Shown piece after piece: positions 1-60,310 of a stretch of 64,000 bases of DNA. The stretch's first letter is position 1. Each line of letters opens with the position of its first letter. A program made the position numbers and the translations under genes. The notes below the pieces were generated by a model, which did not search any database, was not told the DNA's origin, and saw only the letters and a list, made by a program, of their open reading frames with translations. Where the stretch lies: NCBI GenBank assembly GCA_029204225.1, contig CM055092.1, forward strand, positions 99,884,651-99,948,650, read 5' to 3'. Source of the stretch: Diphasiastrum complanatum (taxonomy: Eukaryota; Streptophyta; Lycopodiopsida; Lycopodiales; Lycopodiaceae).

Positions 1-280
1 GGTTCAAGGACTGCCATGGGCCGACACACCATACTCCTCTTTTGTGTCTTCATATAAGAGACACCCTCTTGTTATATACGAGTCACTTGTGGGGCTAGTG
101 AGCCTCTTATTGATGTCTATTCCTCAATGTGGTTCAATTTGGATCATCATTGTTCCTTGAACTTGAAATGATCGTGAACGGACAATATGTGTGTTGTATT
201 GACGTTGTAGCTATGAGTCAGTATACATAAAATTTTTGGCATCTCTTTCACCGAACTCTATTTTTTTAAGTCCACGAGAT

Positions 281-281
<1 letters not shown>

Positions 282-334
<53 letters not shown>
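282..334. repeat. (GA)n microsatellite, about 26 units
   Basis: Uninterrupted GA run. The mirror copy is the CT run at 59,564-59,626, which is about 10 bp longer, so the two have changed length independently. Confidence 0.97.
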
Positions 335-338
<4 letters not shown>

Positions 339-429
339 CATGGTGATGTTATTTTTTTACTATTTTTGAGACTCCCCTTGGTTGTCTGCAGTATTTATCC
401 CTTTTATTCCATTGCACCCATTATATTAG

Positions 430-2172
430 ATGATGGATCCCCTACTCAGAGGTCAGGCCATAGTCGCAGATCATCCCACCTTTCCTCTATGAGCGAGAGT
501 GATCTCATTAGCTATCTTGATCAGTTGCGTTCCTCGCAGCAGTAGAGGGTCTTACAGCGATTGAGGGCTCGATGTGAGGCTCGTAGCTCCTCTCGATTGG
601 TTGAGTACATCGCACCTCCATCCGGCATGGTGCTACTGCAAGTTCTTCCTCCCTACATTCTCGAGAGAGGAGGAGGAGCCGCCTGGGTGTCTCCTGTTGT
701 GGAGGATGTGGTGATAAGCCTGATATTCTCGATGTGCTCGTGAGTGCTAAATGTCCTCATAACACATGTCATCATGGGGGGTCCCTACTTGGAGATACAC
801 TGACCCAAGAAGTAGCACGTATGTCACACGATATTGAAACTCCTGCATCTGTCACACCTCATATTTTCGGCATCTACACTTTCACCCCTCACATTCTCCC
901 TCCCTCTAGACCCACTACAACTGAGTTTTGTCCTTTCTACTATACTCCATGAGGTCACATTTCACCATGGGATTTTGAGCCCACTCCCTTATAGTCTCCT
1001 CCTATCTATCTCCCATCCCGACACCCCCCCTTGGCTATCCTCCCCTTGGTACTCCCCCCCCCCCTCCCCTTTCCTATTCCCCCCCCTAGTACTCTACGTA
1101 CACCCCACAACATCAGTATTCTCCCATCAGCGGGGCATCTGCCACACCCGAGGCCACCCCCATAGACACTCACAGAGCCACATCTCCCTTACTGGAGGCC
1201 ACCCCCTTAGACAGTCCCATGGCTACATCGCCACCAGCTGCCATCCCACCGTCGTATGACATAGACAGGGTTGGTCAGATCATTCAGAATAATCGTGATA
1301 AGGGGGTCATCTTGCGCATGAGGATGCTCATGTATATCCACTTTTCCAGAGACATTTTTCATGACTGACACGGATGACACATGATACTATGACTCCTGCA
1401 TCTGTCACACTTGATTATCCTGACACTCTCACGCTCTCTCCTCACATTTTTCTTTCTTCGATACCCACGCCCCCTATGGGGTCTCCATGGCAACGTGATC
1501 CCTCTTGTTAGGCCACTCCACCCATTTTTCTCAAATTCAAATCCTTATTGGTTACACTCTCGCTCAAACTCCTCCCCAACCTTCTCCTCTTTATTCCCCT
1601 CCCCACTATTCTCGTAATCACCTTTAAACTCCTCCCATTTTTCTCCCATTCAAATTCTTATTGGTTACACTCTTGCTCAAACTCCTCCCCAACCTTCTCC
1701 TCTTTATTCCCCTCCGCACTATTCTCGTGATCACCTTTAAACTCCTCCCAAAATCATTTCCATTGTAATCAACTCCCCCACTCTTTTTGACACTCCCTTT
1801 GCCACCTCTCCATCAGCTGACGTCTTGCCATCCTATGATATAGATGCAGAAAAGCACATAGTGGAGGATGATCGCGGTGGTCGCGTCATCACTTGCATAA
1901 GGCAACTCACGCATGTGGTCTTCAACAAGGACATTCTCAAGGACTGGCGCAAACAAAGTGATGAGAAAAAAAATTATGTCATTGACCAGTTGTATAAAGA
2001 ATTTCCAGTCCCCTCCCCTGATTTGAAATTTGACCGAATATGGATGGAAAAACACATGGAAAGTGTGAGGAGCGACCGCAAATCAGAGATCCGAGATGCA
2101 GTGAGAGTTGGCAAATCTAGGCCATACAACGTGCACAAAGATGATGGGAAGTTTGCAAATAAAGAATTTTGA
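430..2172 (+). pseudogene. Transposase_24-like (Ptta/En-Spm) gene, left copy
   Basis: The clearest part is the 115-codon frame at 1,825-2,172. It has the pattern of plant transposase family 24, a CACTA-associated protein: a tryptophan-basic stretch (ILKDWRKQSDEKKNYVI), then LKFDRIWMEKHM and a basic KSEIRDAVR tail. Weaker coding continues upstream (561-743, RSSSRLVEYIAPPSG), separated by a low-complexity Pro/Ser/His stretch (about 834-1,800) with C-tracts and a duplicated 'TTATTGGTTACACTC' phrase near 1,540 and 1,660. Frame changes between the pieces mean it is no longer one gene, although unrecognised introns could explain some of the gaps. The right copy (57,767-59,480) differs at about 15 of 115 residues, which suggests loss of constraint. 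The family role is DNA binding or transposition of CACTA elements. Confidence 0.6.
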
Positions 2173-3054
2173 GAAGATTCAAATTGTCTCAAGCAACAAA
2201 GAGAGGTTGCTAAGAAGTGCACAGAGATGGCAGGGCCCTTGCACCTAGGCAATGGTGGCCAAGGTTCTTTTCATGCCCTTTTCGTAAATCTCTCCACCCA
2301 TAAGTTGAACTTGTTTTTGTCATAATCATATTACAGTCACTGATTTGTCAATTCATGCAGAAATCTACTGTAAAGTTGTCCTCTTTCAAGCTTAGTTGAC
2401 CAGTTTCAAACTGGTCAACTGAACTTGAAAGAGATATCGGGTTGACCAAGCGTTGACTGACCAAAACTTTTGACTGGCCATAACTTCTTTCTCGGAACTG
2501 GATCATGTTGGGTGTTGTTGAATAGTTCTCGTTGAGGGATTTCTAATGGCACCATAATCGTCGTTCAAAAGTTACACTGTTTTTTTGTTGAGTTGCATAC
2601 TATACTACAAATAAAATGGCTTATTTACGGGATGCCCCTGACGCAAAATTATAGTTCTTTTAAACAAAAAAAAAAACCAATTTGAAGGAGGTACATTGAG
2701 AAAAAAAATAAAGAGTATCCTTCTGAAAGACCTCTTTTGTGTTCAGATTTTCTCTAATGATGGGGACGATTCAGCTGCAACCTTGCTGGTACCCAATCTT
2801 AGAATTGGCATTAGTGTATTTTCTCTCAAAATCTCTTTGCTATAAAAACACGAATGCAATCATTTAGATACGAAACATGATTGGTAATAAAAAACATATC
2901 TAAAATAATTATAATAAAATCAAACTAAAAAAGAAAAACTTACAAATTGGGCTTGTAAATTGGATTTCCCACCCGAGCCAAGGTGAGATTGGCCCAAGAG
3001 ATTGATCTCGTTGTTGTTTGAATCGATCAGGATTGGGATGCTTGGACTTGTGTA
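2173..3054. other. Non-coding stretch between two CACTA-type genes
   Basis: No supported gene. It holds the palindrome at 2,394-2,420, an AT-rich part (2,640-2,960) and the 3' flank of the minus-strand frame that follows. The whole stretch is mirrored at about 56,886-57,690. Confidence 0.6.
2394..2420. promoter_or_regulatory. Perfect 27-bp palindrome in a cluster of TTGAC motifs
   Basis: Thirteen bases on each side of a single C (AGTTGACCAGTTT / AAACTGGTCAACT). Over the next 80 bp come more TTGACC or TTGACT cores (GGTTGACC, CGTTGACTGACC, TTTGACTGG). TTGAC[C/T] is the W-box core bound by WRKY factors. The mirror copy at 57,518-57,544 keeps the palindrome except for one base. It could also be a subterminal binding site for a CACTA protein. 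Confidence 0.5.
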
Positions 3055-3462
3055 TCACCTTTGCCCAATCTTTCTTTGAAGCCCACGCTGGCCTTTTTTT
3101 GCCATTTTAACATATCTTCGTAAGGATTGATGCTTATGACGAATATGCATACACATATTCGTCAATGCCCACACCTCCCCAGATCTATTTGATTGAAGAA
3201 ACTCACTATTCAAAATCGCAAGTATCTTATTCTTGTCATCTTGGTCTTGTTGCTCCCAAGGAGTGAATAAGTTGTGGCCAAAATATTTGAGTGCAAGGTC
3301 ATGCATCCTATTGATGACGACATTTCCCTTGGTATCTTTGATGATGGAACCATCATCTTCTAAATTATAAAACAAATTGTATGATTCCTCCAATGGGATA
3401 TCCATCGAAAGATTACCTCTATTGAAATCGGGCTCTTCTTCGAAAAGACAAAGATATTTCAA
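3055..3462 (-). CDS. Conserved 135-residue frame, CACTA-associated (left copy)
   Basis: An open frame of 135 codons whose right-arm twin at 56,478-56,885 has only 4 amino-acid differences. The middle resembles the Trp-containing N-terminal block of plant transposase family 24 proteins: FTPWEQQDQDDKNKILAIL, then NSEFLQSNRSGEVWALTNM, then a basic tail (RRYVKMAKKGQRGLQRKIGQ). Upstream on the same strand is an acidic segment (EEEPDFNRGNLSMD, NLEDDGS). The assignment rests on this pattern alone and is tentative. The frame converges with the plus-strand Transposase_24-like piece. It may be the last exon of a larger gene, because the start codon sits inside readable sequence. It could be a CACTA accessory protein, or a remnant kept open by youth. 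Confidence 0.5.
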   Translation of the reverse strand: MKYLCLFEEEPDFNRGNLSMDIPLEESYNLFYNLEDDGSIIKDTKGNVVINRMHDLALKYFGHNLFTPWEQQDQDDKNKILAILNSEFLQSNRSGEVWALTNMCMHIRHKHQSLRRYVKMAKKGQRGLQRKIGQR

Positions 3463-3489
3463 TTTCTATGTTGACGGCACAGAAGTCAA

Positions 3490-3976
3490 GCCAGAAGGTG
3501 ATGTAGCCATTATCACCAAAGCAATATGCAACCATGATTGAATTTTGGCTCTAGGTTGAATTCTGACTCAGGGTTGAATTTGAATCCTTCATCTTTCCAA
3601 CCAAAGTAGAAACTATTCTACAGATACTATAAGGACTTGGACATGAAATCAAGGGCTGCAAAACTTTGAAATATAAAAATGAGAAGAAGTAGTACCAACA
3701 ACAAGCCCATATGACCAAGGTCGGAGAACAACATGATATCTATTCCTGATATTTCGATTCTGGAGCAACACAACATATGACTCACCACCAAGACTGGTTC
3801 AAATATTATAAATCTTTCACCCACTCTCGAGTTGTGCAACTAGGAGACAACTCATCACATTCGATCCATGGTGAAGGAACAGTAAGGGTCGAATTTTAGA
3901 AGGGTGATGTCAAGTTGCTATCCAAATTTCTCCACGTACTAAATCTAACCAAGAACCTACTCTCAGTTAGTAGAAT
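3490..3976 (+). mobile_element. Copia fragment (gag end and protease part)
   Basis: A short fossil with the protease-type signature DSGATQHMTHHQDWF (about 3,760-3,800) and the downstream LGDNSSHSIHGEGTVRV and LTKNLLSVSRI blocks that precede the Copia integrase. It is related to the Copia remnant at 9,901-11,370 but is a separate copy. It is broken and present only in the left arm. Confidence 0.75.
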
Positions 3977-4213
3977 TGTGAAAATGTTTTATTCTTGGTG
4001 TGTGTGGTCGGCGGGCTAGGGATTGAACCTATGACCTCCCCCATTTCAGTGGGGTGCTCTACCACTAACCTACCCGTCCATTTGTATTCCAAGAGGGTTG
4101 TGCAAGGGCTATAGCCTTGACACTTTCCAACACTCCCCCTCAAGGCATAGCCCTTTATAGCTACTACCCGCCTAAATCACACCCACAACCATGGCTCTGA
4201 TACCATGTGAAAG
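3977..4213 (-). mobile_element. TRIM-like miniature LTR element carrying a tRNA-like segment
   Basis: Read on the minus strand there is a primer-binding site TGGTATCAGAGC (4,194-4,205, matching initiator tRNA-Met as in Copia and TRIM elements). A very short internal region follows, then the purine tract TTGAGGGGGAG (4,133-4,143), then an LTR-like block of about 156 bp (4,132 down to 3,977) beginning TGTTGG and ending TTTTCACA. The internal region is only about 73 bp. The other LTR is not clearly recognisable beyond its last bases (CTTTCACA). It is non-coding and has the layout of terminal-repeat retrotransposons in miniature. Confidence 0.6.
4006..4080 (-). other. tRNA-like sequence inside the TRIM LTR
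   Basis: The minus strand shows an A-box-like TAGGTTAGTGGTAGAGC, a GC-rich anticodon-type stem (CCCCA / TGGGG) and a perfect B-box GGTTCAATCC (4,020-4,029), in tRNA order and spacing. The anticodon loop between the stems would be 6 nt rather than 7 and the acceptor stem pairs poorly, so this is a tRNA-derived RNA polymerase III promoter module rather than a tRNA gene. Confidence 0.65.
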
Positions 4214-4233
4214 TTTACAAGTTGTAATATGAA

Positions 4234-6655
4234 TTGCATTTGATTTCTTTAGGTTTTACAACTTCCATATATAACACGTGTCTCGTTTGGGGACCGAATA
4301 TTGATGCTCGACACTCACATTATCTAAGCAAAGTTGTATATGAAAATCATCGCAAATACTTGCGTGAGAATCATTCATTTCGAAATACACAAAGAAAGGG
4401 ATTAGGAGGAAAGAAGGAAACAAGGATGCCTCCAAAGAGGATGTCCATGGAAGATCGGCACAAGCTCTAGATTGAATCTGAGATCAAGCCAATCAATGGT
4501 ATGAAAAGAGTATCTATCTTTCATTGTCTACCATATTGGAATAAACTTTTGCTCAATCACTTGCTTGATCATATGGATATATTCAAAAATGTGAGTGAAT
4601 CATTATGGAAACACTTGGTGGGCAAAAAAGATAGTATTAATGCAAGACAAGACCTACAAGAATCAAAGACAAAAGAAGAGTATTGGCGAAAGTTGGGTAT
4701 AGATGAAAATACTCATATCATTCAAAGAGCCCCTTGGATTCTTACCAAGGAAGAGTACAAGTATGTACGCATTTGCGAGATGAGAACGCCAATTGGTTTT
4801 GCTCATTCACTACGAACATCATTCACAACAAAAGGAGAACTTCATGGTCTTAGATCTCATGATTGCTTGAAGATGCATGAGTAAATCTTTCCAATGTGTG
4901 TTCGTGGTTGTCTAATTGATCAACTTCACAATACCATTTTCAAATAAGCATCCATTGTCAAGTACTTACATTTCTTTCATTTACGTTTTATGCTACTGTA
5001 TATTTATTTTACATGCAAGTTTGATAAAGTCATATGATGATGATCATATACCACAAATATGATGTAGATGGATGTGTGACAAGGAGATTCGTGAGATAGA
5101 TGAGGAAAAAAAACATGAAGATATAGTGGAGGCTATATGTATGCTTGAGAGATATTTTCCAACCTCCATCTTGGACATACAAGTGCATCTGGTTGTGCAC
5201 TTGGTCCAAGAAATTGATATTGTTGGTCCTATGTGCACTCAAGGTACAAAATATACGATTTTGATTTTTTTGGCCTCAATGTATTTAGCATCATTTTTTT
5301 ACTATGTCATTGACCACTGCTCTCATTATTGCAATAAATGTTTATAACTAGATTTTTTTTTTGGAGAGATTCATGAAAGTTTTGAAATATTTTGTGCGTC
5401 AAAAGACAAGACCAGAGGGAAGCATTGTCGATGGGTGGTTAGTGCAAGAATCTCTTATCTATGTCACTGAATTTTTGCTTCAAATACATTCATCTACTCC
5501 ATGGCTATGGAATGATGAGGAGAACAATGAGGTAAAAGGCAAAAGACCCCAAGGTATAGGTTCTCTTAAGAAAAGGAGCCTTTTCTAAGAGAAAAAATTT
5601 CTACTTTCATGCTCTATAATTCTAAAGTGATGGATAAGTGGTTGGAATTATACGAGAGAAGAAAAAAAAAATGTTGTCTAGAAACAAACACCGACATAAT
5701 AGGCATAGTAGGGGCCATGCTGCACCTTCACGTGATGTTGACCAATGCACCATAGACAGACAAGATCAAAGGGACAAGTCATATCTGACACAGAATGGGA
5801 ATTTGCAAGAGGATGTGATTGGAAGGTTTCTTTATTGTTTTTTTTTTAGTAAAAATACAATGTACATGTATAATAATTGATTATTGTCCTAATTACAGTT
5901 AATATGTGGCAGTATCGAAAGTATAGTGCAATGTAGGCATATGGTTGTTGTCATCGCGTTGAACGAGTTGACATGAAACGAGAAACTTATGATTGTGTTG
6001 TGATGGCATCTTTCAATCAAGAAAGTCCGAGTAGTGCCAGACCAAAGTCCAATCTCTAGAGAGCTTGAGTATGTAGGAATTATTCAAGATATATATGAAG
6101 TGTGTTTCGGCAAAAATGGTAAATAGTTTTTGTTTGATGTGAAATGGTTCAAAATCAATTATCAAGGGTCAAATGCAACCGTGAAAAGAGATCGTAGTGG
6201 ATTTTTTGCTATCGATTCAACCAAGATATTAAGCATGGATTTTTCAAACACATTGGTGTCGCCTTGTCATTGTGAACAGGTTTGTCAGATGAGTTTGACA
6301 TCCATTTTTCCTCAATCATAATCAGTGATATACACTATTTCATTGCAATTCCATGACATTGTTTGAACAAACTTTATAACTTAACATTGTTAAATATTTG
6401 AAAATGCATACATTGAGAATGAAATGGATGACTTGAATATTGACAACACAAACATGGATGTTGATGAGAATATAAAAATATCTCCAAGTTTTCTAAATAT
6501 TATAGAAAATACTATAAATGAATCGAATGATTCTGACACAAACGACAATATCGAGAGAGTCCGATTACTATAGTATTGATGATGAAATTCATCTAAGCGG
6601 AGATGAGTTGCAAGATTCACTAGGTGATGAATTTGAATCTTGTTATGATGAATAA
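4234..6655 (+). pseudogene. CACTA (En/Spm) tnp2 transposase, left copy, 3' half
   Basis: Three blocks of a tnp2-type protein lie in order. First, 4,501-4,884 has LNHLLDHMDIFKNVSESLW, APWILTKEEYK and the HSLRTSFTTKGELHGLRSHD signature. Second, the DUF4218 block spans 5,072-5,588 (EAICMLERYFPTSILDIQVH, then MERFMKVLKYFVRQKTRPEG, GWLVQESLIY). Third, a DUF4216 block at about 6,060-6,320 has DVKWFKINYQGSN and FAIDSTKILSMDF, and an acidic tail runs to 6,655. The pieces are in different frames with AT-rich intron-like gaps and some stops, so the gene is broken. The family enzyme cuts and moves CACTA elements. The right copy (54,890-56,430) lacks the first block. Confidence 0.85.
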
Positions 6656-6661
6656 ATTATA

Positions 6662-6712
<51 letters not shown>
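6656..6712. repeat. (AT)n microsatellite
   Basis: AT/TA run of about 57 bp directly after the tnp2 remains. The mirror run is at 54,835-54,878 and is shorter. Confidence 0.95.
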
Positions 6713-6715
<3 letters not shown>

Positions 6716-7440
6716 AACCATTTATGATAAAATAATAGTTTGCATAATTATTGCATCTTTATAATGCATTCTTGTATTTTTCAAGTTCATCTTGAGTTAT
6801 ATCTGACAATCACTTATGATTCATTCTAAATCAAATGCTTTCACTGCAATCTATACCTTATTAAAGATCTAGCTAAAATTGATTGACCAAATAAAACAAT
6901 TAGTGAACATACGTTGATCATTTATATACGCTTCAAAAATAATTTTCTTTTGAAACATCCTTACTATACTGAAAATCTATATATTAAAGCAATATCTTCA
7001 TATCTTCACTCTGGTTGAAATAATTTTCCTTTTCAAAGAAAAAAAAAATTGTAGATATATACTTGTTGGTTTCAATATTCTTTTTTTGCTTGTTTGCTCA
7101 GTCCACAATGTTGACATTGCAATTCATCACAATCAAGTATGCACAATCATGCGAATTATATATTCACATAGTCATGCACAATCATGCAAATTATATATTC
7201 TCATAGTCATCATATATTCACATTATAATATGAGAGATAATAATACACTTTTTCATAGTGTTCGATTATTCATTCATCTTTGCTACCACACAAATGTATA
7301 TAACATTGCTTTTTTTTCATCAACAAATTTTTGGAACATAACAATTTCGTCAGAGCATAATAATTTGACATCATAATCATTTAATTTCTAGTTCAAAATC
7401 ATGATCATATAATAATCATTTTATTATTAGTTAGCACTTA
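6713..7440. other. AT-rich intergenic stretch, no gene
   Basis: No supported coding sequence. It contains short direct repeats around ATCATGCAAATTATATATTC (7,145-7,215). It is mirrored at about 54,190-54,830. Confidence 0.6.
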
Positions 7441-9300
7441 TTCAAAATCTCAAAAGAAGTCTTATTCAAATTAATCCAACTTTGGAATTCTCTGGAAATT
7501 TGCCACGCGTGGCAAATCTCTAGAATTACACTTATAGTGAAAGTTGGTTAAATAACAGTCATGCATGGCACTTCCACGCGTGGCTCAATCATGACAATCA
7601 CTTTGGCACTCATTTTTTAAAACTCTATTTTTAAAACATCTCTAGTCGAGTTTTCTCACATGGATTTCTCTCTACCTGAGAGAGGGCATTTCCAGACTTA
7701 TATTTCAGTTGGACAAGTATTCACACTTGTGAATGTACTTGTCTTGATGATTTATGCATGGTAGAAAGTGCTCTTGCCTTAGATTTATGCAATAGATCTT
7801 GATTTTCAATCTATGTGTGATCTATGTGCAATCACAAAGTCTCAGGAGATCAATAACACACTTTGTGGCACTCCCACATGTGTGAATTTCAACATGGTAT
7901 CAGAGCTAGCCTAAGATATCCATGCATATGTCAATTGGATGTGAAAATTTGCCTTGAAATCAAGAACTTTTGAGTGTACTTGCATCTACCAAAATTTGAA
8001 TGGTTGGTGTTTCTCCAAGGTAGATCCGAATCGAGTGCTTGATTGCTTGTTGGAAAGCAACTGGTAAATGTAGTTTCTAGTGCAATTGATTTCAAGTCAA
8101 TTGGATGTGCCTTGAAGTGATGTAGGTAGGGCACCTAACCTATGTAGACACATCAATTTAAGCTCACTTCTTGCTTTTTGATCCAAAAACACAAGGGAAA
8201 GCTTGCCAATATTGTCTATTTGAGATCTAGACAATTTTTTGAGGTCATAGCCATATAGTTTCATGCAATACAATTGTATTTGAGTCATTTGTGAATGTTT
8301 TTGAGTGCTTTTGAGTTGTTGAGTCAAGTTGACCCAAACTTTGTCCATGCTCCATCTTGGGATGAGAGTTTGATCTAGTCTGAGAGAGATTGGTAGAGCT
8401 AGTGAGATGGGTCTCACACCAAGTCTCATATTGGAGTTAGTAGTGCACCTTTTAATGATCCATTATTGAGAGAGAAGCAACACCTTCTGATCTATTACAA
8501 GACATCATTTTCACTTTTCATGGCTTCCATAGGTTCCTTCCTATTAATGTCAAGTGAGAGATTGAACACCTCCAATTATGACATTTGGAAGGTGAGGATG
8601 GACTCCATTTTGGTGCCCCAAGATGTGATGGAGATTGTGCTAGGACTTGAGGAGGAGTCTCAAGAGCTCCAAGAGGTCCAAAAGTACAAGAAAAGGGCTA
8701 GGTTGTCCCTACATATCATAAAGATGAATGTTTCCAATGAAGTGTTGTGGGAGATTGGCTCATGCACCTCATCCAAGGAGGCTTGGGACACATTGGAATC
8801 CCTCTATGAAAAGAACACATTGAAGGATGATGGAGAGGTGAAAGCTTACTTCAAGAAGGACAAGCCAAGAGGAAGGGTCGAAGAGCAACATCAACATTTC
8901 AAGAAGGACAAATCAAAGGAGGAGAGTGATGAGGAGTCATCACAAAAAAGTTGCAAATCCAACAAGAAGTGCTACTTTTGTGGTAAGAATGGGTATTTTG
9001 CTTCTAATTGTTTCAAGAAGAAAGAGTTTAAGAGGGATGGTGATGTGGTAGCAAGTGAGACTAGATGTGGTAATATTTCAAGATTGATGTTAATCCTTGT
9101 GGACGTGTGGCCAAGAGGAGCTTGGATCATCTCAAGGAGGAGAAGGCAAGTAATCTACCTCAACCTATGTTCCAAGACGGTGAGGCTCATGAAGATGGTG
9201 CTTTGGCAAAAACACATGGAGAGTTATTATTTCATGTGACTTATTACTTAAAGACTTCAAGTGGAGGTATCTCTTATCAAAGGTGCTTGATATGAAGATT
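7441..9300 (+). mobile_element. Copia remnant A: LTR end, primer site and gag (left copy)
   Basis: A primer-binding site TGGTATCAGAGC at 7,895-7,906 follows an LTR end in ...TTCAACA. Downstream, from about 8,520, is a Copia gag with the UBN2-type opening (MASIGSFLLMSSERLNTSN, then YDIWKVRMDSIL, IIKMNVSNEVLWEIG) and a CCHC-like knuckle near 8,970-9,010 (CYFCGKNGYFASNC). The LTR 5' boundary is not certain. No protease, integrase or reverse transcriptase of this element is visible, so it is broken. The right copy is 52,257-54,190. Confidence 0.8.
7502..7513. promoter_or_regulatory. CGCG-core palindrome in Copia A LTR
   Basis: Perfect 12-bp palindrome GCCACGCGTGGC, with a second partly matching copy (CCACGCGTGG) at 7,574-7,583, both inside the presumed LTR. 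CACGCG / CGCG cores are bound by plant CAMTA-type factors, so an LTR enhancer role is possible. The right arm keeps the pair, the first one as GCCACGCGTGGC near 54,123. Confidence 0.4.
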
Positions 9301-9900
9301 GCAATAGTTGATACGTTGGGGATCTTTAGAGCCATATGCTTTGTCAACATTCATTTGAAAGTAAGGAATAAGGAGGATCTAATCTCAATCTAGAGGATGA
9401 TGGTAGGATTTTCAAATCTACCAAAAATCCAAGTGTATGATGGAGAGTTGCCAAGGCTTGAGGAGGAGGCTTCTCAACACATGGTTTTATGGAGATATTC
9501 AAGAGTCAAGGCCGAGTCTATGTGGCTCACTTCTCATGGCAAAGAGGGGCAAGTTTCAGGTGGTATCTACTCCAACATTCTCACTTATGCTTCTCTTCCA
9601 TTATTTGATATACCATCTTGATTTATTGAGGATTCTACATCTCAAAGTTCAAGTCAGGCAATACTAGTTTTGTATGATGCCTATTACATCAACATATTTC
9701 TTGTCATTGATGGCTTAGATATGTTTCCAAATCATTTTGAAAGCAAGTGGTTGTCTCATCAAATGTATGCTCTTGGATCTACTAAGAGCAAGAATGAGTT
9801 TGTTACTCATAGTGTGAAAAATCATGTTTTTACATGTTTTGAGGCAATTCTTAAACTTCTCTTGAGATTAAGTGAAACATCCTTGTAGTCTAGGTCAAAT
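9301..9900 (+). other. Unassigned stretch kept in both arms
   Basis: Between the two Copia remnants. A frame at 9,397-9,621 (LPKIQVYDGELPRLEEEA, HMVLWRYSRVKAES) continues as 9,670-9,888 (DGLDMFPNHFESKWLSHQM). The mirror at 51,799-52,257 is a single longer frame. I do not recognise a domain. Probably part of Copia A or of a nested insertion. Confidence 0.35.
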
Positions 9901-11770: not shown

Positions 11771-11773
11771 GGG

Positions 11774-15690: not shown

Positions 15691-15699
15691 GTACACCCA

Positions 15700-47641: not shown

Positions 47642-47649
47642 ATGTCGAA

Positions 47650-49143: not shown

Positions 49144-49559
49144 ATCGGCATGTAGCCCAAATCAACATTCAATTGATTCTATAGCTACCCACTCTAAAAA
49201 TGAACTGAATCAGATCCTACACTTTACTAAAACTGAGCTACACTTGCATTAATCCACAAAGCTAAAACAAGAACTAATCTACAGCATTTTAGAAGTCCAA
49301 GAATCAAGAAACCAACCAGTGTTTTGATTCTTGGACATTCCAAGAACATCAAAAACTAGAATGTTGTAGGATATGCAAGATTTATACCACATTTCTAGCC
49401 TATTTAGTTTACTTGAATGCTGGTTCCCACATTAATCCACAAACAAGAAAAAAAAACTAATCCACTCTAGGAAAGCAACAAATCTAAATGCTTTTGTTGC
49501 ATGTGAATGATTTTGTGAATGAATTTTTGGATTCATTATTTCAAGTTTAATTTTATTTC

Positions 49560-51780
49560 ATTTAAGTTTTTTCAAGACTTGTTTTATGTAAAAGTAAAGT
49601 TAGTAAATTCAAGATCCTAAAGATTGTAAGTAACCCTCCCTTGAGGTTCACAAGTAGTGATCTGACTGAAAGCGAAACATCCAAACACTCTGATATGGTT
49701 GAGTAATGGCTTCGATCTTGTCCACACCTAATAAAGTGTCTTGCCATTCAAGGCCTCTGAAATGGATCAATTTTGCAGGTAGGCTGTTGTAGTAACAGCT
49801 TTTGCCCAGAACTTCTTTGGAAGAGATGCATAGGCCAGCATGCTCCTTGCACTTTCAATGAGTGACTGAGTCTTCCATTTAGCTACACCATTTAACTGAG
49901 GTGAGCTTGTTGTAAAATGTTGTTGTATTCCGGTTGCCTTGTAGAAGTCTTCGAGTTTGTTGGAGATAAATACTCCCGCTACATCTGAGTGTAGAAGCTT
50001 TGATTCTTCTCTGGGTCGATTTTTATGATGATGCCTTGAACTGCATGAAGAACTTGAGATTATTGGATTTGTTCTTCAAGAAATATGTTACAGTCCTTTG
50101 AGATAAGTCATCAATAATAGTCCACAAATAGACAGCTCCTCTTGTGGAACTAGTCTACATAGGACCACAAAGGGCCATGTGTACAAGATCTAGCAAATTT
50201 TTAAAAATACATTCTAAATTTGAAATGATTGAACTTCTAACATGCTTGCTGGAAATACAGCTTTTACATGGAGTATCGGATTTGCTAATGAAGGGTAAAT
50301 TTTGTACTAAGTTTTGTTTTAACATTTGTTGATTACAACTAGAATTTAAATGGCCTAATCTATGACATATCATTTGAATCAGAAGTAGTAGTAAAAAGAG
50401 CTTGACTACTTGTAGAATAGGAGTGACTGAGTTTGTGCAAATTGCCACATCTTCTACTAAAAGCAAAAAATTTCCTAGATTCAAGGCCTCTGAAATGGAT
50501 CAATTTTGCAGGTAGGCTGTTGTAGTAACAGCTTTTGCCCAGAACTTCTTTGGAAGAGATGCATAGGCCAGCATGCTCCTTGCACTTTCAATGAGTGACT
50601 GAGTCTTCCATTTAGCTACACCATTTAACTGAGGTGAGCTTGTTGTAAAATGTTGTTGTATTCCGGTTGCCTTGTAGAAGTCTTCGAGTTTGTTGGAGAT
50701 AAATACTCCCTCTACATCTGAGTGTAGAAGTTTTGATTCTTCTCTGGGTCGATTTTTTTGATGATGCCTTGAACTGCATGAAGAACTTGAGATTATTGGA
50801 TTTGTTCTTCAAGAAATATGTTACAGTCCTTTGAGATAAGTCATCAATAATAGTCAACAAATAGACAGCTCCTCTTGTGGAACTAGTCTACATAGGACCA
50901 CAAAGGGCCATGTGTACAAGATCTAGCAAATTTTTAAAAATACATTCTAAATCTGAAATGATTGAACTTCTAACATGCTTGCTGGAAATACAGCTTTTAC
51001 ATGGAGTATCGGATTTGCTAATGAAGGGTAAATTTTGTACTAAGTTTTGTTTTAACATTTGTTGATTACAACTAGAATTTAAATGGCCTAATCTATGACA
51101 TATCATTTGAATCAGAAGTAGTAGTAAAAAGAGCTTGACTACATGTAGAATAGGAGTGACTGAGTTTGTGCAAATTGCCACATCTTCTACTAAAAGCAAA
51201 AAATTTCCTAGATTCATCAAGAATCGTGCAGTCCTGTCTATCGAATTTGACCCTCTGACCTGAATCCCTAATTTTGCTCACTGAGAGCAAGTTTTTGGTC
51301 AGATTTGGAATGTGAAGAACATTGGACAATAACATTACATCACCTTTATGGAATTTGATTCTGACTATTCCTTCACCCGCAGTCGAATGAGCTGAGTTGT
51401 CTCCAAGTTGCACAACTCTAGAATGGGTGTATGACTTGTAGTCATGGAACCAGTCTTGATCGTGAGTCATGTGTTGTGTTGCACCTGAGTCCAAATACCA
51501 GGAATCGATATCATGTTGTTCTTCGACTTTGGTAAAAAATGTAGCTTCATCTTTCTCTTCATGCTCGATCAAGTAACTGGTTGAGGCAGCATTTGCTTGT
51601 TGTTGGGACTGCATCTTCTTTTCATTGTTGTACTTGAGTATTCCGCAATTCTTGATGAGATGGCCAATCCTCTTACAATATTTGTAGAACAGGTTCTGCT
51701 TTGGCTGGAATGATGAAGAAGAATTCATGTTTCACTCGAGCCAGTATTTGACCCTGAGTTAAAATTCGACCAAGACTACA
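49560..51780 (-). mobile_element. Copia remnant B, right copy, with a tandem duplication
   Basis: Mirror of 9,901-11,370. The protease-to-integrase part is better kept here: one frame (51,093-51,728) reads from the knuckle (YCKRIGHLIKNCGILKY) through WYLDSGATQHMTHDQDWFHD to LTKNLLSVSKI. A 733-bp segment occurs twice in tandem (see next entry). Broken in several places. Confidence 0.85.
49750..51215 (-). repeat. 733-bp tandem duplication inside Copia B
   Basis: Unit one is about 49,750-50,482 and unit two about 50,483-51,215. They are almost identical, and both begin AGGCCTCTGAAATGGATC in plus-strand reading. The left arm has one copy, so the duplication is younger than the inverted repeat. 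Confidence 0.92.
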
Positions 51781-52256
51781 AGGATGTTTCACTTAATCTC
51801 AAGAGAAGTTTACAAATTGCCTCAAAACATGATTTTTCACACTATGAGTAACAAACTCATTCTTGCTCTTACTAGATCCAAGAGCATACATTTGATGAGA
51901 CAACCACTTGCTTTCAAAATGATTTGGAAACATATCTAAGCCATCAATGACAAGAAATATTTCCATATAATAGGCATCATACAAAACTAGTATTGCCTTA
52001 CTTGAACTTTGAGATGTAGAAATCTCAATAAACCAAGATGGTATATCAAATAATGGAAGAGAAGCATAAGTGAGAATGTTGGAGTAGATACCACCTGAAA
52101 CTTGCCCCTCTTTGCGACGAAAAGTGAGCCACGTAGACTCGGCCTTGAGTCTTGAATATCTCCATAAAACCATGTGTTGAAAAGCCTCCTCCTCAAGCCT
52201 TGGCAAATCTCCACCATACACTTGGATTTTTGGTAGATTTGAAAATCCTACCATCA

Positions 52257-54190
52257 TCCTCTAGATTGAGATTAGATCCTCCTTATTCCTTACTTTCAAA
52301 TGAATGTTGACAAAGCATATGGCTCTAAAGATCCCCAACGTATCAACTATTGCAATCTTCATATCAAGCACCTTTGATAGGAGATACCTCCACTTGAAGT
52401 CTTTAACTAATAAGTCACATGAAATAATAAATCTCCATGTGTTTTTGCCAAAGCACCATCTTCATGAGCCTCACCATCTTGGAACATAGGTTGAGGTAGA
52501 TTACTTGCCTTCTCCTCCTTGAGATGATCCAAGCTCGTCTTGGCCACACGTCCACAAAGATTAACATCAATCTTGAAATATTACCACATCTAGTCTCACT
52601 TGCTACCACATCACCATCCCTCTTAATCTCTTTCTTCTTGAAACAATTAGAAGCAAAATACCCATTCTTACCACAAAAGTAGCACTTCTTGTTGGATTTG
52701 CAACTTTTTTGTGATGACTCATCATCACTCTCCTCCTTTGATTTGTCCTTCTTGAAATGTTGATGTTGCTCTTCGACCCTTCCTCTTGGCTTGTCCTTCT
52801 TGAAGTAAGCTTTCACCTCCCCATCGTCCTTCAATGTGTTCTTTTCATAGATGGATTTCAATGTGTCCCAAGCCTCCCTGGATGAGGTGCATGAGCCAAT
52901 CTCCCACAACACTTCATTGGAAACATTCATCTTTATGATATGTAGGGACATCCTAGCCCTTTTCTTGTATTTTTGGACCTCTTGGAGCTCTTGAGACTCC
53001 TCCTCAAGTCCTAGCACAATCTCCATCACATCTTGGGGCAACAAAATGGAGTCCATCCTCACCTTCCAAATGTCATAATTGGAGGTGTTCAATCTCTCAC
53101 TTGACATTAATAGGAAGGAACCTATGGAAGCCATGAAAAGTGAAAATGATGTCTTGTAATGGATCAAAAGGTGTTGCTTTTCTCTCAATAATGGATCATT
53201 AAAGGTGCACTACTAACTCCAATGTGAGACTTGGTGTGAGACCTATCTCACTAGCTCTACCAATCTCTCTCAAACTAGATCAAAGTCTCATCCCAAGATG
53301 GAGCATGGACAAAGTTTGGGTCAACTTGACTCAAGCACTCAAAATCACTCAAAAACATTCACAAAAGACTCAAATACAATTGTATTGCATGAAACTATGT
53401 GGCTATGACCTCAAAACATTGTCTAGATCTCAAATAGACAATATTGGCAAGCTTTCCCTTGAGTTTTTGGATCAAAAAGCAAGAAGTGAGCCTAAATTGA
53501 TGTGTCTACATAGGTTAGGTGCCCTACCTACATCACTTCGAGGCACATCCAATTGACTTGAAATCAATTGCACTAGAAACTACATTTACCAGTTGCTTTC
53601 CAGCATGCAATCAAGCACTCGATTCGGATCTACCTTGGAGAAACACCAACCATTCAAATTGTGGTAGATGCAAGTACACTCAAAAGTTCTTGATTTCAAG
53701 GCAAATTTTCACATCCAATTGACATATGCATGGATATCTTAGGCTAGCTCTGATACCATGTTGAAATTCACACATGTGGGAGTGCCACAAAGTGTGTTAT
53801 TGATCTCCTGAGACTTTGTGATTGCACATAGATCACACATAGATTGAAAATCAAGATCTATTGCATAAATCTAAGGCAAGAGCACTTTCTACCATGCATA
53901 AATCATCAAGACAAGTACATTCACAAGTGTGAATACTTGTACAACTGCCCTTCTCTCAAGTAGAGAGAAAATCCATGTGAGAAAACTCGTATAGAGATGT
54001 TTTTAAAATAGAGTTTTAAAAAATGAGTCCCAAAGTGATTGTCATGGTTGAGCCATGCGTGGAAGTGCCATGCATGACTGTTATTTAACCACCTTTCACT
54101 AGAAGTGTAATTCTGGAGATTAGCCACGCGTGGCAAATTTCCAGAGAATTCCAAAGTTGGATTAATTTGAATAAGACTTCTTTTGAGATC
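52257..54190 (-). mobile_element. Copia remnant A, right copy
   Basis: Mirror of 7,441-9,300: LTR end and primer site (plus-strand GCTCTGATACCA near 53,747-53,758), gag at 52,415-53,188 with 12 differences in 257 residues, and the same knuckle. Broken, as on the left. Confidence 0.8.
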
Positions 54191-54831
54191 TTGAATAAGT
54201 GTTGACTAATAATAAAATGATTATTATGTGATCATGATTTTGAACTAAAAATTAAATGATCATGATGTCAAATTATTATGCTCTGACGAAATCGTTATGT
54301 TCCAAAAATTTGTTGATGAAAAAAAAGCAATGTTATATACATTTGTGTGGTAGCAAAGATGAATGAATAATCGAACACTATGAAAAAGTGTATTATTATC
54401 TCTCATATTATAATGTGAATATATGATGACTATGTGAATATATAATTTGCATGATTGTGCATGACTATGTGAATATATAATTCGCATGATTGTGGATACT
54501 TGATTGTGATTTGAAAAGGAAAATTATTTCAACCAGAGTGAAGATATGAAGATATTGCTTTAATATATAGATTTTCAGTATAGCAAGGCTGTTTCAAAAG
54601 GTAATTATTTTTGAAGCGTATATAAATGATCAACGTATGTTCACTAATTGTTTTATTTGGTCAATCAATTTTAGCTAGATCTTTAATAAGATATAGATTG
54701 CGGTGAAAGCATTTGATTTAAAATGAATCATAAGTGATTGTCAGATAGAACTCAAGATGAACTTGAAAAATACAAGAATGTATTATACAGATGCAATAAT
54801 TATGCAAACTATTATTTTATCATAAATGGTT

Positions 54832-54834
<3 letters not shown>

Positions 54835-54878
<44 letters not shown>
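54835..54878. repeat. (AT)n microsatellite, right copy
   Basis: Mirror of 6,656-6,712, shorter. Confidence 0.95.
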
Positions 54879-54881
<3 letters not shown>

Positions 54882-54889
54882 AACCATAC

Positions 54890-56430
54890 CAAGATTCAAA
54901 TTCATCAGCTAGTACATCTTGCAACTCATCTTCGCTTAGATGAATTTCATCATCAGTACTATAGTAATCAAACTCTCTCAATATTGTCGTTTGTGTCAGA
55001 ATTATTCGATTCATTTATAGTATTTTCTATAATATTTAAAAAACTTGGAGATATTTCTATATCCTCATCAACGTCCATGTTTGTGTTGTCAATATTCAAG
55101 TCATCCATTTCATTCTCAATGTATGCATTTTCAAATACATGTCTTGCGTGTGGCTAACTTGAACAACATACCACAACTTGTTGTTTAGTCGATCTGGTTG
55201 AAAAAATACCTGCACATTTAACAATGTTAAGTTAAAAAGTTTGTTCAAACAATGTCATGGAATTGCAATGAAATAGTGTATATTACTGATTATGATTGAG
55301 AAAAAATGGATGTCAAACTCATGTGACACACCTGTTCACAGTGACAAGGCAACACCAACGTGTTTGAAAAATCCATGTTTAATGTCTTGGTTGAATCGAT
55401 GGCAAAAAATCCACGATCTCTTTTCACGGTTGCATTTGACCCTTGATAATTGATTTTGAACCATTTCACATCAAACAAAAACCATTTACCATTTTCACTG
55501 AAACACACTTCATATACATCTTGAATAATTCCTACATACTCAAGCTCTTCAGAGATTGGACTTTGGTCTCGTGCACTACTCAGACTTTCTTGATTGAAAG
55601 ATGCCATCACAACACAATCATAAGTTTCTCGTTTCATGTCAACTCGTTCAACGCGATGACAACAACCATATGCCTACATTGCACTATACTTTCGATACTG
55701 CCACATATTAACTGTAAATAGGACAATTATCAATTATTATACATGTACATTGTATTTTTACAAAAAAAAAACAATAAAGAAACCTTCCAATCACATCGTC
55801 TTGCAAATTCCCATTTCGTGTCAGATATGACTTATCCCTTCGTATAATTCCAACCACTTATCCATCACTTTAGAATTATAGAGCATGAAAGTAGAAAATT
55901 TTTCTCTTAGAAAAGGGTCCTTTTCTTAAGAGAACCTATACCTTGGGGATTTTTGCCTTTTACCTCATTGTTCTCCTCATCATTCCATAGCCATGGAGTA
56001 GATGGATGTATTTGAAGCAAAATTTCAATGACATAGATAAGAGATTCTTGCAGTAACCACCCATCGACCATGCTTCTCTCTAGTCTTGTCTTTTGACGCA
56101 CAATCTTTCAAAACTTTCATGAATCTCTTCAAAAAAAACATCTAGTTATAAACATTTATTGCAATGATGAGAGCAGTGGTCAATGACATAGTAAAAAAAT
56201 GATGTTAAATACATTGAGGCCACAAAAATCAAAATTGTATATTTTGTATCTTGTGTGCACATAGGACCAACAATATCATTTTTTTGGACCAATTGCACCA
56301 CCAAATGCACTTGTATGTCCAAGATGGAGGTTGGAAAATATCTCTCAAGCATACATATAGCCTCCACTATATCTTCATGTTTTTTTTTCCACATCTATCT
56401 CACAAATCTCCTTGTCACACATCCATCTAC
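54890..56430 (-). pseudogene. CACTA tnp2 transposase, right copy (DUF4218/DUF4216 part)
   Basis: Minus strand: DUF4218 block in 56,146-56,394 (EAICMLERYFPTSILDIQVH, VQLVQKNDIVGPMC) and 55,907-56,101 (RQKTRLERSMVDGWLLQESL). The DUF4216 block in 55,290-55,637 has MKRETYDCVVMASF, LEYVGIIQDVYEV and DVKWFKINYQGSN in a single 115-codon frame, better kept than on the left. An acidic tail follows. The block that precedes DUF4218 in the left copy is missing: the sequence passes directly into the neighbouring minus-arm frame near 56,435. Confidence 0.85.
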
Positions 56431-56477
56431 ATCATATTTGTAGTTCTGGCTTGACTTCTGTGCCGTCAACATAGAAA

Positions 56478-56885
56478 TTGAAATATCTTTGTCTTTTCGA
56501 AGAAGAGCCCGATTTCAATAGAGGTAATCTTTCGATGGATATCCCATTGGAGGAATCATACAATTTGTTTTATAATCTAGAAGATGATGGTTCCATCATC
56601 AAAGATACCAAGGGAAACATCGTCATCAATAGGATGCATGACCTTGCACTCAAATATTTTGGCCACAACTTATTCACTCCTTGGGAACAACAAGACCAAG
56701 ATGACAGGAATAAGATACTTGCGATTTTGAATAGTGAGTTTCTTCAATCAAATAGATCTGGGGAGGTGTGGGCATTGACGAATATGTGTATGCATATTCG
56801 TCAGAAGCATCAATCCTTACGAAGATATGTTAAAATGGCAAAAAAAGGCCAGCATGGGCTTCAAAGAAAGATTGGGCAAAGGTGA
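56478..56885 (+). CDS. Conserved 135-residue frame, CACTA-associated (right copy)
   Basis: Twin of 3,055-3,462 with 4 differences in 135 residues, the best-kept protein pair of the two arms. Same acidic start, TPWEQQDQDD block and basic tail. Tentatively Transposase_24-like. Its flanks also match the left arm, including the downstream CCGAGCC/GGCTCGG text after the stop. Confidence 0.5.
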   Translation: MKYLCLFEEEPDFNRGNLSMDIPLEESYNLFYNLEDDGSIIKDTKGNIVINRMHDLALKYFGHNLFTPWEQQDQDDRNKILAILNSEFLQSNRSGEVWALTNMCMHIRQKHQSLRRYVKMAKKGQHGLQRKIGQR

Positions 56886-57766
56886 TACACGAGTCCAAGC
56901 ATCCCAATCCTGATCGCTTCAAACAACAACAAGATCAATCTCTTGGGCCAATCTCACCTGGGCTCGGGTGGGAAATCCAATTTACAAGCCCAATTTCTAA
57001 GTTTTTCTTTTTTAGTTTGATTTTATTATAATTATTTTAGATATGTTTTTTATTACTAATCATGTTTCGTATCTAAATGATTGCATTCGTGTTTTTATAG
57101 CAAAGAGATTTTGAGAGAAAATACACGAATGCTGATTATAAGATTGGGTACCAACAAGGTTGCAACTGAATCGTCCCCATCATTAGAGAAAATCTGAACA
57201 CAAAAGAGGCCTTTCAAAAGGATAATCTTTATTTTTTTCTCAACATAGCTCTTTCAAATTGATTTTTTTTTTTTTTAAAAGAACTATAATTTTGCGTCAG
57301 GGGCAGCCCGTAAATAAGCCATTTTATTTGTAGTATAGTATGCAACTCAACAAAAAAACAGTGTAACTTTTGAACGACGATTATGGTGCCATTAGAAATC
57401 CCTCAACGAGAGCTTTTCAACGACCCCCAACATGACCAAGTTCCGAGAAAGAAGTTATGGCCAGTCAAAAGTTTTGGTCGGTCAATGCTTGGTCAACCTG
57501 ATATCTCTTTCAAGTCCAGTTGACCAGTTTGAAACTGGTCGACTGAACTTGAAAGAGGACCACTTTACAGTAGATTTCTGCATGAACCGACAAATCAGTG
57601 ATTGTAATATGAATTATAACAAAAACAAGTTCAACTTATGGGTGGAGAGACTTACGAAATGGGCATGAAATGAACCTTGGCCACCATCGCCTAGGTGCAA
57701 GGGCCCTGCCATCTTCGTGCACTTTTTAGCACCCTCTCTTTGTTGCTTGAGACGATTTGAATCTTC

Positions 57767-59480
57767 TCAAAATTCTTTATTTGCAAACTTCCAATCGTAT
57801 TTGTGCGCGTTGTATGTCCTAGATTTGCCAACTCTCACTGCATCTCGGATCTCTGATTTGCAGTGGCTCCTCACGCTTTTCATGTGTTTTCCCATCCATA
57901 TTCGGTCAAATTTCAAATCAGGGGAGGGGACTAGAAATTCTCTATACAACAGGTCAATGACATAATTTTTTTTCTCATCACTTTGTTTGTGCCAATCCTT
58001 GAGAATGTCCCTGTTGAAGACCACATGCGTGAGTTGCCTCATGCAAGTGATGACGCGACCACCGCGATCATCCTCCACTATGTGCTTTTCCGCATCTATA
58101 TCATAGCATGGCAAGACGTCAGCTGATGGAGAGGTGGCAAAGAGAGTGTCGAAAAGAGTGGGGGAGTTGATTACAATGGGAATGATTTTGGGAGGAGTTT
58201 AAAGGTGATCACGAGAATAGTGGGGAGGGGTATAAAACGGAGAAGGTTGGGGAGGAGTTTGAGCAAGAGTGTAACCAATAGGGGTTTGAATGGGAGAAAA
58301 AATGGGTGGAGTGGCCTAACAAGAGGGATCACGGTGCCATGGAGACCCCATAGAGGGCATGGGTATCGAAGAAAGAAAAATGCGAGGACAGAATGTGAGG
58401 GTGTCAGGATAATCAGGTGTGACAGATGCAGGAGTCATAGTATCATGCGTCATTTGTGTCAGTCATGAAAAATGTCTCTAGAAAAGTGGATATACATGAG
58501 CATCCTCATGCGCAAGATGACTGCCTTATCACGATTATTCTCAATGATGTGACTAACCTTGTCTATATCATACGGTGGTGGGACGGTAGCTAGTGGCGAT
58601 GTAGCCATGGGACTGTCTAAGGGGGTGGCCTCCAGTAAGGGAGATGTGGCTCTGGGAGTGTCTATGGGGGTGGCCTCGGGTGTGGGAGATGCCCCACTGA
58701 TGGGAGAATACTGATGTTGTGGGGTGTACGTAGTGTACTAGGGGGGGAATAGGAAAGGGGAGGGGGGGGGGGGGGGGGGGACTACCGAGGGGGGTGTTGG
58801 GATGGGAGATAGATAGGAGGAGACTATAGGGGAATAGGAATAGGAAAGGAGAGGGGGCGGGAGTACCAAGGGGAGGACAGCCAAGGGGGGGTGTCAGGAT
58901 GGGAGATAGATAGGAGGAGACTATAGGGGAGTGGGCTCAAAATCCCATGGTGAAACGTGACCCCATGAAGTACAGTAGAAAGGACAAAACTCAGTGGTAG
59001 TGGGTCTAGAGGGAGGTAGAATGTGAGGGGTGAAAGTGTAGATGCCGAAAATACGAGGTGTGACAGATGCAGGAGTTTCGATATCGTGTGACGTATGTGC
59101 TACTTCTTGGGTCAGTGTATCTCAAAGTACGGACCCCCCATGACAACATGTGTGATGCGGATGTTTAGCACTCACGAGCACATCGAGAATATAAGGTTAT
59201 CACCACATCCTCCACAACAAGAGACACCCAGGTGGCTCCCCCTCCTCTCTTGAGAATGTAGGGAGGAAGAACTGGTAATAGCACCATGTCGGGTGAAGGT
59301 GTGATGTACTCAACCAATCGAGAGGAGCTACGAGCCTCACGTCGAGCGCTCAATCGCTGTAAGACCCTCTACTGCTGCGAGAAACACAACTGATCAAGAT
59401 AGCTAATGAGATCACTCTCGCTCCCGCGACTATGGCCTGACCTCTGAGTAGGGAATCCATCATCTAACATAATGGGTGCA
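57767..59480 (-). pseudogene. Transposase_24-like gene, right copy
   Basis: Mirror of 430-2,172. The C-terminal frame 57,767-58,114 (ILKDWHKQSDEKKNYVIDLL, LKFDRIWMGKHMKSVR) and the upstream piece 59,165-59,353 (REARSSSRLVEYITPSPDMV) are separated by the same low-complexity stretch, here with a long G-tract near 58,760. It is no longer one frame, and the two copies have drifted to about 87% at protein level. Confidence 0.6.
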
Positions 59481-59558
59481 ACGGAATAAGAGGGATAAAT
59501 ACTGCAGACAACCAAGGGAAGTCTCAAAAATAGTAAAAAAAAAACATCACCATGTCCA

Positions 59559-59563
<5 letters not shown>

Positions 59564-59626
<63 letters not shown>
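59564..59626. repeat. (CT)n microsatellite, right copy
   Basis: Mirror of the GA run at 282-334. Translated on the minus strand it gives a run of Glu-Arg, which is not a gene. Confidence 0.97.
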
Positions 59627-59629
<3 letters not shown>

Positions 59630-59689
59630 CCATGGACTTAAAAAAATAGAGTTTGGTGAAACAAATGCCAAAAATTTTATGTATACTGA

Positions 59690-60310
59690 CTCATAGCTAC
59701 AACGTCAGTACCAACACATATATTGTCCGTTCACGATCATTTCAAGTTCAAGGAACAATGATGATCCAAATTGAACCACATTTAGGAATAGACATCAATA
59801 AGAGGCTCATTGGCCCCACAAGTGACTCGTATATAACGAGGGGGTGTCTCTTATATGAAGACACAAAAGAGGAGTATGGTGTGTTGGCCCATGGCAGTCC
59901 TTGAACCTTGCGATTCGTAGCATCAAAGAGAGAAAATGATACTACTACTTTGAACTCAACACTTCAAAGTGGTTACATATGGACACTTGTTTTAATCCAA
60001 ATAAACCTTATGCAACCTTTTAGAGTTATTGAGTTTGAAGTAGCATACACACTCTTCTCATTTCGATGTGGTGAATTATGAGTTCAAGGACGTCAACAGC
60101 CTGCATACCATATGCCTCTTTGGTGTCGTCATTTTTAGACAAGACACCCAATCGGCATAGACAACTCGATCGAGGAGCCAGTTAGCCCCCTTTGCATCCT
60201 CAATGGATTCGTGTCATCATTAATATTGTTAGGGTTATGGTTTGTGGTTAATTGGAGATGGAAAAATGATTTATATGTTGGTATTGCCCTCGTAGCTTTG
60301 ACTCAATACC
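59690..60310. repeat. Old diverged palindrome centred near 59,994
   Basis: Sequence left of the centre (59,908 down to 59,690) reappears inverted at about 60,080-60,310 with clear but imperfect similarity. Examples are GTTCAAGGAC, then CATAC/CACAC text, GTGTC.TCAT, AAGACACCC, TCCTCAATG, and TAGCTATGAGTCAGTATACATAAAA against TAGCTTTGACTCAATACCTATAAAA. The middle is itself a hairpin (ACTTTGAACTCAA near 59,946 against TTGAGTTTGAAGT near 60,026). Confidence 0.65.

Follow-up and report, generated by a model that had tools for sequence, protein, structure and literature searches.

Sex chromosomes supply most of the known cases in which large palindromes occur in many copies together with gene amplification. 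Those of mammalian Y chromosomes combine inverted arms, an amplified gene and exchange between arms, and their arms are larger and far more alike than the ones described below. In plants, break repair can leave inverted segmental duplications in which a copy of nearby DNA, rich in transposable elements, is joined with microhomology, and weeds can amplify a host gene with transposable-element-rich flanks to many copies on circular DNA, as with EPSPS in Amaranthus palmeri. The palindrome W.P1 of the willow (Salix purpurea) W chromosome measures about 42.7 kb; for its spacer the text of the willow report gives 2.6 kb and the table 3,586 bp (PMC7023750), and the report also names the ampliconic palindromes of mammalian Y chromosomes. 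Here we describe a window of 64,000 nucleotides from Diphasiastrum complanatum (Lycopodiopsida; the window is the whole stretch analysed, positions 99,884,651 to 99,948,650 of contig CM055092.1 in assembly GCA_029204225.1), in which long inverted arms enclose a gene for acireductone dioxygenase (ARD). Our best explanation, with a probability of about 0.7, is one microhomology-type inverted duplication inside an ARD amplicon, later amplified and dispersed in larger blocks, with some exchange between arm types.

Inverted arms and their inner junction

We call the window's own copy of the palindrome W (C1:99,884,651-99,948,650 of the 1.74-Gb assembly) and its left and right arms L and R. Three further copies were fetched for comparison: K2 at C1:99.43-99.49 Mb (C1:99.46), K3 on the minus strand at C1:94.88 Mb, and C7 at C7:44.49 Mb. 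Positions are those of the window; negative ones lie to its left. The main parts are:

1-28425, plus strand: left arm, the probable source arm by the junction argument; pairing goes on leftward to -599
28426-40409, plus strand: spacer, an ARD-bearing repeat unit of about 12 kb, multi-copy
29551-30378, plus strand: ARD gene, with PF03079 on two exons, a match to 5i8s, and frame and splice borders
30500-30548 and 30673-30763, plus strand: tentative last ARD exons, weak and placed by eye, 1 bp different in length in other copies
40409-40410, no strand: inner junction of the right arm, AAATCATCTCGTA joined to CTTTAGGCC, read by us as a 2-bp microhomology AC
40410-62717, minus strand: inverted right arm, of which 40410-43426 and the part past 60506 have a visible partner only in other copies

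The junction at 40409/40410 fuses ARD-unit sequence, which is continuous elsewhere, to a truncated repeat, and its string is present in all four copies. When 1.74 Gb were searched with up to 2 mismatches allowed, the junction was found at 17 places on seven contigs (eight on C1, three on C3, two on C7 and one each on C8, C10, C11 and C16). Twelve were exact and five had one mismatch; 13 were forward and four reverse. The unbroken site occurred at 80 places within the same mismatch limit, and the controls gave 0 in both searches, that for the junction being the reversed string. Around the 17 junctions, a listed ARD exon lies 7-11 kb upstream in at least 12 cases, the right arm is present in at least 14 and the left arm in at least 10; all three, and hence the full unit, accompany at least 9 of the 17, on three contigs. 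These context counts are lower bounds, obtained with 40 of 80 matches in one arm listing, whose 40 short ones were dropped, 41 of 42 in the other, and 29 ARD matches. At C8:15650267-15650452 (minus strand) the unbroken site and the junction lie 157 bp apart, and a short stretch is seemingly doubled.

In the left arm of C7, the truncated repeat continues, for about 150 bp as judged by eye, into a minisatellite and then the ARD unit; the extra stretch has the same 3,834-bp length in K3. Because the repeat is cut off at the junction in R and continues in the C7 left arm, the left arm is likely the source and the right arm its inverted copy. The 2-bp microhomology fits an origin of the template-switch type, one of those put forward in the sequence-only reading that preceded this work.

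The giant inverted repeat on which that reading was built is real. L 1-28425 and R 43427-59907 are inverted and collinear in the window self-comparison, with 90.9-95.6% BLAST identity in the main blocks, and the block alignment, in the same order in both arms, holds 13,578 sites with 683 substitutions (5.03%; 468 transitions and 215 transversions). K80 distances between the arms run from 0.035 to 0.083 block by block. All arm self-matches passed E 1e-10; by this measure, their identity over kilobases is far beyond chance. The window contains only A, C, G and T, with no N. As in inverted segmental duplications, paired opposite blocks of at least 1 kb show at least 90% identity and more than one transposable element is involved: the arms are a mosaic, they enclose an intron-bearing ARD gene, and the copied blocks include ARD.

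The limits first drawn for the repeat had to be moved. L begins at base 1 because the window begins there. Pairing passes the proposed outer end at 59908, extending to -599 and 60506 in the fetched flank, where a Copia element interrupts L, and reaching 62717 in K2. The proposed inner end at 28425/43427 is not the original one, as K2, C7 and K3 hold about 3.8 kb more of the left arm and the inner end of R is at 40409/40410; comparison with the fetched copies also ruled it out as an element end.

The order left arm, ARD spacer, right arm is repeated in K2, K3 and C7, which are about 95-99% alike by BLAST in the main blocks, and the spacer is about 12 kb in W and in all three fetched copies. The 80-kb comparison of K3 with C7 gave about 77 kb of matching sequence (98.1-99.7%), broken by some indels and reaching outside the palindrome; their homology passes it by more than 6 kb on each side, to or nearly to the edge of the fetched sequence. 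W and K2 are 455 kb apart and about 1% different. Large inverted arms round a spacer together with an amplified gene, as seen here, are the pattern of ampliconic palindromes. Breakage-fusion-bridge cycles make arms meet with no spacer or a short one, and four copies have about 12 kb there; sister-chromatid fusion alone, another origin suggested earlier, would not leave such a spacer.

Order of events and exchange between arms

We compared six segments of up to eight arms from the four copies. In most cases an arm is closer to its counterparts in other copies than to the opposite arm of its own copy, so that the palindrome most likely arose before it spread. In segment 1750-3496, left and right arms differ by 4.18-4.95%, left arms of different lineages by 2.93-3.11%, right arms by 1.72-2.18% and near pairs by 0.35-0.92%. 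Three segments group cleanly but for one arm, namely 5050-5655 and 8701-10461 (both the left arm of C7) and 5769-7037 (the right arm of K2), and segment 7126-8700 has no clear pattern.

Local exchange is visible in C7. Its left arm carries 17 consecutive diagnostic sites in the right-arm state at 5090-5597, and its right arm 8 consecutive sites in the left-arm state at 12123-12331; K3, otherwise near-identical to C7, has the expected arm type at both tracts. The donors could be any copy. As signs of gene conversion, these two tracts stand beside arms that are nonetheless about 5% different, with donors that may be other copies. Three further candidates were not retained: a right-arm tract of K3 (5194-5811, 11 sites), for which W and K2, themselves near identical, are the only same-arm controls; a tract of 5 sites in the right arm of W (6952-7967), which is too thin; and a left-like piece in the right arm of K2, which is confounded by a local duplication there.

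Divergence within the arms bears on the age of the mosaic. At sites outside CG and CHG, the two arms differ by 2.75% (283 of 10,288) in block A (1-13378), evenly along the block (dispersion index 1.11, p 0.32). Block A is also collinear between the arms, and with this uniform divergence it supports the earlier proposal that the mosaic predates the inverted duplication. One identical run of 279 bp in block A (p 0.01) hints at exchange between arms. Block B (17990-28425) differs at 93 of 1,947 such sites (4.8%), above block A (p 8e-6), and for the stretch 42000-43426, which adjoins the Gypsy block, a first look gave 2,327 candidates genome-wide, of which 40 were scored. Because of this higher divergence and these many candidates, the Gypsy block is a weaker witness to a pre-existing mosaic than block A. 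Decay affects 117 of 282 CG sites against 68 of 448 GC sites, equally in each arm (57 and 60), a pattern that methylated repeats are expected to show.

The ARD gene and its amplification

The spacer had been taken as a single-copy stretch of 15 kb with two genes. It measures 12 kb (28426-40409), bears ARD, and is repeated: its piece 30000-32000 has at least 47 genome matches (40 of 259 candidates scored). ARD is the one host gene identified; a second was not found in the spacer frames scanned, several other frames being retroelement-like. The ARD exons, numbered 2-5 by us with the first exon not identified, lie at 29551-29650, 29775-29869, 30014-30128 and 30254-30378. The joined four-exon peptide matches acireductone dioxygenases of solved structure over nearly the full query (PDB 5i8s, E 3.8e-44), and the introns are in place. 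The piece 35000-36500 is 90-98% alike in clusters and 85-88% elsewhere among the matches listed, and was carried along in the amplification.

A Pfam search of the genome gave at least 154 ARD exon matches (150 of 326 candidates scored). At least 91 exon-5 matches fall in C1:94.46-99.97 Mb, 49 on the plus and 42 on the minus strand, with a median spacing of 50 kb; orientation switches 27 times among them against 45 in shuffles (p 2e-4), so that copies stand in runs of one orientation. Further matches are listed on C2, C3, C7, C8, C10, C11, C13, C24 and some short contigs, and some lie outside clusters, such as the one at C2:5.58 Mb, the top scorer among the matches listed. A second cluster occupies C5:49.67-50.83 Mb, where two copies read differ from W by 8-9% in introns; no C5 entry occurs among the left- and right-arm matches listed. 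Six fetched loci (L003-L008) on C1, C3 and C7 differ by 0.06-0.44% in the ARD unit and by 0.94-1.58% from W and K2.

The exon sequences suggest partial past constraint on ARD copies. Among five more divergent copies (10 pairs, not independent; a further copy, L038, and the C2 gene were dropped for poor alignment), exons are less divergent than introns in 7 of 10 pairs at p <0.05, and in several pairs about half as divergent, for example 4.6% vs 9.2% (p 0.005). However, pN/pS, the ratio of nonsynonymous to synonymous differences, ranges from 0.23 to 1.70 on few synonymous sites, and the eight closest loci have no exon-intron difference (variable sites number 7 of 580 in exons and 8 of 626 in introns). 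Moreover, both C3 copies lack 4 exon bases, the last exons differ by 1 bp in length, and 13 of the 91 listed C1 exon-5 matches have a stop inside the matched exon. These points also speak against constraint.

Losses and insertions in the arms

Other features bearing on the present form of the arms are:

8406-10772, plus strand: old Copia fragments common to both arms; partner 51093-53206, minus strand
12344-13378, plus strand: minisatellite common to both arms; partner 47644-48585
19612-26040, plus strand: Copia retrotransposon, absent from K2, C7 and K3, which have 617 bp of other sequence there
28425-28426, no strand: deletion scar; 3,834 bp of left arm (further repeat and minisatellite), kept in C7 and K3, are gone in W
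44756-44760, no strand: scar TCTGC of the right-arm deletion; the lost segment corresponds to L 19015-27178, which measures 8,164 bp with the later Copia counted in
49746-51216, minus strand: right-arm tandem duplication, 99.2% identical over a 738-bp alignment
60961-63421, plus strand: CACTA-like element with CACTACAAAA strings at 60961 and 61306; its 5' part lies inside the outer right-arm end as paired in K2
62635-63264 and 63155-63418, plus strand: tnp2 transposase (PF02992, by Pfam) of the CACTA-like element

The arm sizes of 28 and 16.5 kb noted earlier are as seen. Their asymmetry stems mostly from losses and a later insertion, above all the deletion in R and the Copia in L that K2, C7 and K3 lack. 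R has no segment equal to L 19015-27178 and carries a 5-bp microhomology, TCTGC, in its place, and parts of the segment survive in the right arms of C7 and K3. We rejected the converse, an insertion in L with TCTGC as target duplication, because the Gypsy frame runs into the segment and parts of it persist in other right arms. At 28425/28426 the extra left-arm length is 3,834 bp in both C7 and K3 and similar in K2. The stretches that separate block A from block B, L 13379-17989 and R 46536-47643, are unrelated, and may reflect two complementary deletions.

The Copia at 19612-26040 has an intact frame of 1,297 amino acids. Most of the difference between its two long terminal repeats (LTRs) falls in U3 (about 240 bp), while R-U5 is almost the same in both. 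No target duplication was seen, and 617 bp of target are missing. Both U3 types are found in separate LTRs nearby (-7027 to -600 left of the window and 72176-72830 to its right), so the element is likely a recombination product of two insertions. Dating by its LTRs, which would make it older than the duplication, was rejected, since their difference lies mainly in U3 and R-U5 is near identical as read by eye. Elsewhere in the arms, a degenerate old palindrome occupies 59675-60317 in the outer part of R (centre about 59996, 194 of 314 aligned columns identical), and a tRNA-like sequence lies at 4005-4079 on the minus strand (Rfam score 35.2).

Explanations of the palindrome

The course of events we propose would begin with amplification of an ARD-bearing stretch on C1, to which the sister copies on C5, more divergent, would be related. 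In a single event, the left arm, a transposable-element mosaic of at least 22 kb, would have been copied in inverted form and fused to an ARD unit at its end (40409/40410). This join would have broken a CACTA-like sequence that is unbroken elsewhere, and its microhomology fits template switching or microhomology-mediated break repair. The arms would then have diverged, with decay at CG and CHG sites typical of cytosine methylation. The unit would have been duplicated repeatedly within C1:94.5-100 Mb and copied to other chromosomes in larger blocks, which measure about 77 kb or more in the single pair that was compared, most likely driven by unequal or ectopic recombination between C1 repeats and by broken or circular DNA reinserted elsewhere. 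Later indels, the Copia insertion and local exchange between arm types would have shaped each copy. At the level of the assembled sequence, the comparisons establish a single junction with many copies and a palindrome that preceded the spread; the molecular route of the inverted joining and of the later amplification and spread is what we infer.

Several observations weigh against this account. The junctions on C8 and C11 have none of the listed arms and no listed ARD within 13 kb; those at C3:13.598, C3:70.77 and on C16 lack a listed ARD, and that at C7:44.63 lacks a listed right arm. Only two of the six segments (1750-3496 and 11185-12500) show a clean separation of all left arms from all right arms. 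Transversions are more frequent in block B (51 of 2,253, 2.26%) than in block A (164 of 11,325, 1.45%; p 0.007), and the divergence gap between these blocks would not be predicted by a single event without differing rates or later exchange. The border between the blocks is not common to the arms, L 13379-17989 and R 46536-47643 being without clear homology. W and K2, which lie 455 kb apart and differ by about 1%, could be two haplotypes placed one after the other, and each block outside C1 could be misplaced in the assembly.

A bolder form of the same history is doubtful: a selfish or selected gene-bearing palindrome that formed once, multiplies in a 5.5-Mb ARD array, exchanges sequence between its arms and reinserts elsewhere in blocks of at least 75 kb, perhaps via circular DNA, with ARD exons under some constraint.

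That the pattern arose in assembly, when haplotypes, or repeats first collapsed and then re-expanded, were strung together and assigned to the wrong chromosomes, seems to us improbable. The genome is in 5,176 contigs, the ARD stretch L036 holds 40 N, W and K2 are allele-like in their distance and divergence, and the six fetched loci on three contigs differ very little. However, no N occurs in the three joined regions of 60-70 kb that were counted, each copy has indels and insertions of its own, and the arms are 5% different. Two haplotypes, the objection foreseen in the sequence-only reading, cannot yield 17 copies of one junction on seven contigs, although they could account for W and K2 alone. 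Assembly error at single places is possible.

Still less probable is that one and the same large mosaic was inserted twice, independently, so as to flank ARD in opposite orientations. The many candidates for 42000-43426 beside the Gypsy block, the greater divergence of block B and the unshared border of the blocks would suit this origin. Yet block A contains several nested elements whose order agrees between the arms and whose divergence is uniform, and R finishes on its inner side not with an element end but with a truncated element that has been fused to a broken CACTA-like site.

Least credible of all is a giant composite transposon, in which two CACTA-like outer ends would mobilise arms and ARD as a unit with a target-site duplication: the junction on several contigs, the CACTA-type strings and tnp2 gene at the right outer end and a 1.1-kb direct repeat outside both arms (-9053 to -7944 and 65052-66161, 95%) favour it, but the C7 and C1:94.88 copies match more than 6 kb past the arm ends on both sides where fixed outer ends are expected at the arms, extents vary between contigs among the matches listed, the inner arm ends are not element ends, and no short target-site duplication was seen in the fetched sequence, beyond which the outer ends of the amplified blocks lie. 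Of the composite unit carrying a host gene that had been suggested earlier, the recurrence of the ARD unit elsewhere stands, and a transposon ending at the arms finds no support. The single inverted duplication followed by block-wise spread is the reading that we prefer.

Comparison with known systems

With one traceable junction that would have founded the unit, 17 listed descendants on seven contigs and a known passenger gene, the formation, spread and decay of a palindrome can be followed here. The case raises the question why acireductone dioxygenase, a methionine-recycling gene, has so many copies. The ARD palindrome array could be a sign of a region that does not recombine or is linked to sex, or else of an adaptation in gene dosage, and both are directly testable. 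No published ARD amplicon was found among the top-ranked literature matches, which does not show that the case is unpublished.

Compared with the palindromes of mammalian Y chromosomes, the inverted arms, the amplified gene and the exchange are alike, whereas exchange here is confined to short tracts. Inverted duplications from break repair in plants share the style of joining, but here the product itself was amplified and spread. A host gene with transposable-element-rich flanks is multi-copy both here and in the EPSPS amplification of Amaranthus palmeri; here, most listed copies stand in one chromosomal array. The closest described case known to us is that of the willow W palindromes (PMC7023750). 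Willow arms are more than 99% identical on average across four arms and 96-99% in the other part of W.P2, and they lie in a female-specific region (PMC7023750); ours are 91-96% identical, and the full unit here accompanies at least 9 of the 17 junctions, on three contigs. The two systems are alike in their large inverted arms with genes in a plant, in multi-copy arms and in signs of arm exchange.

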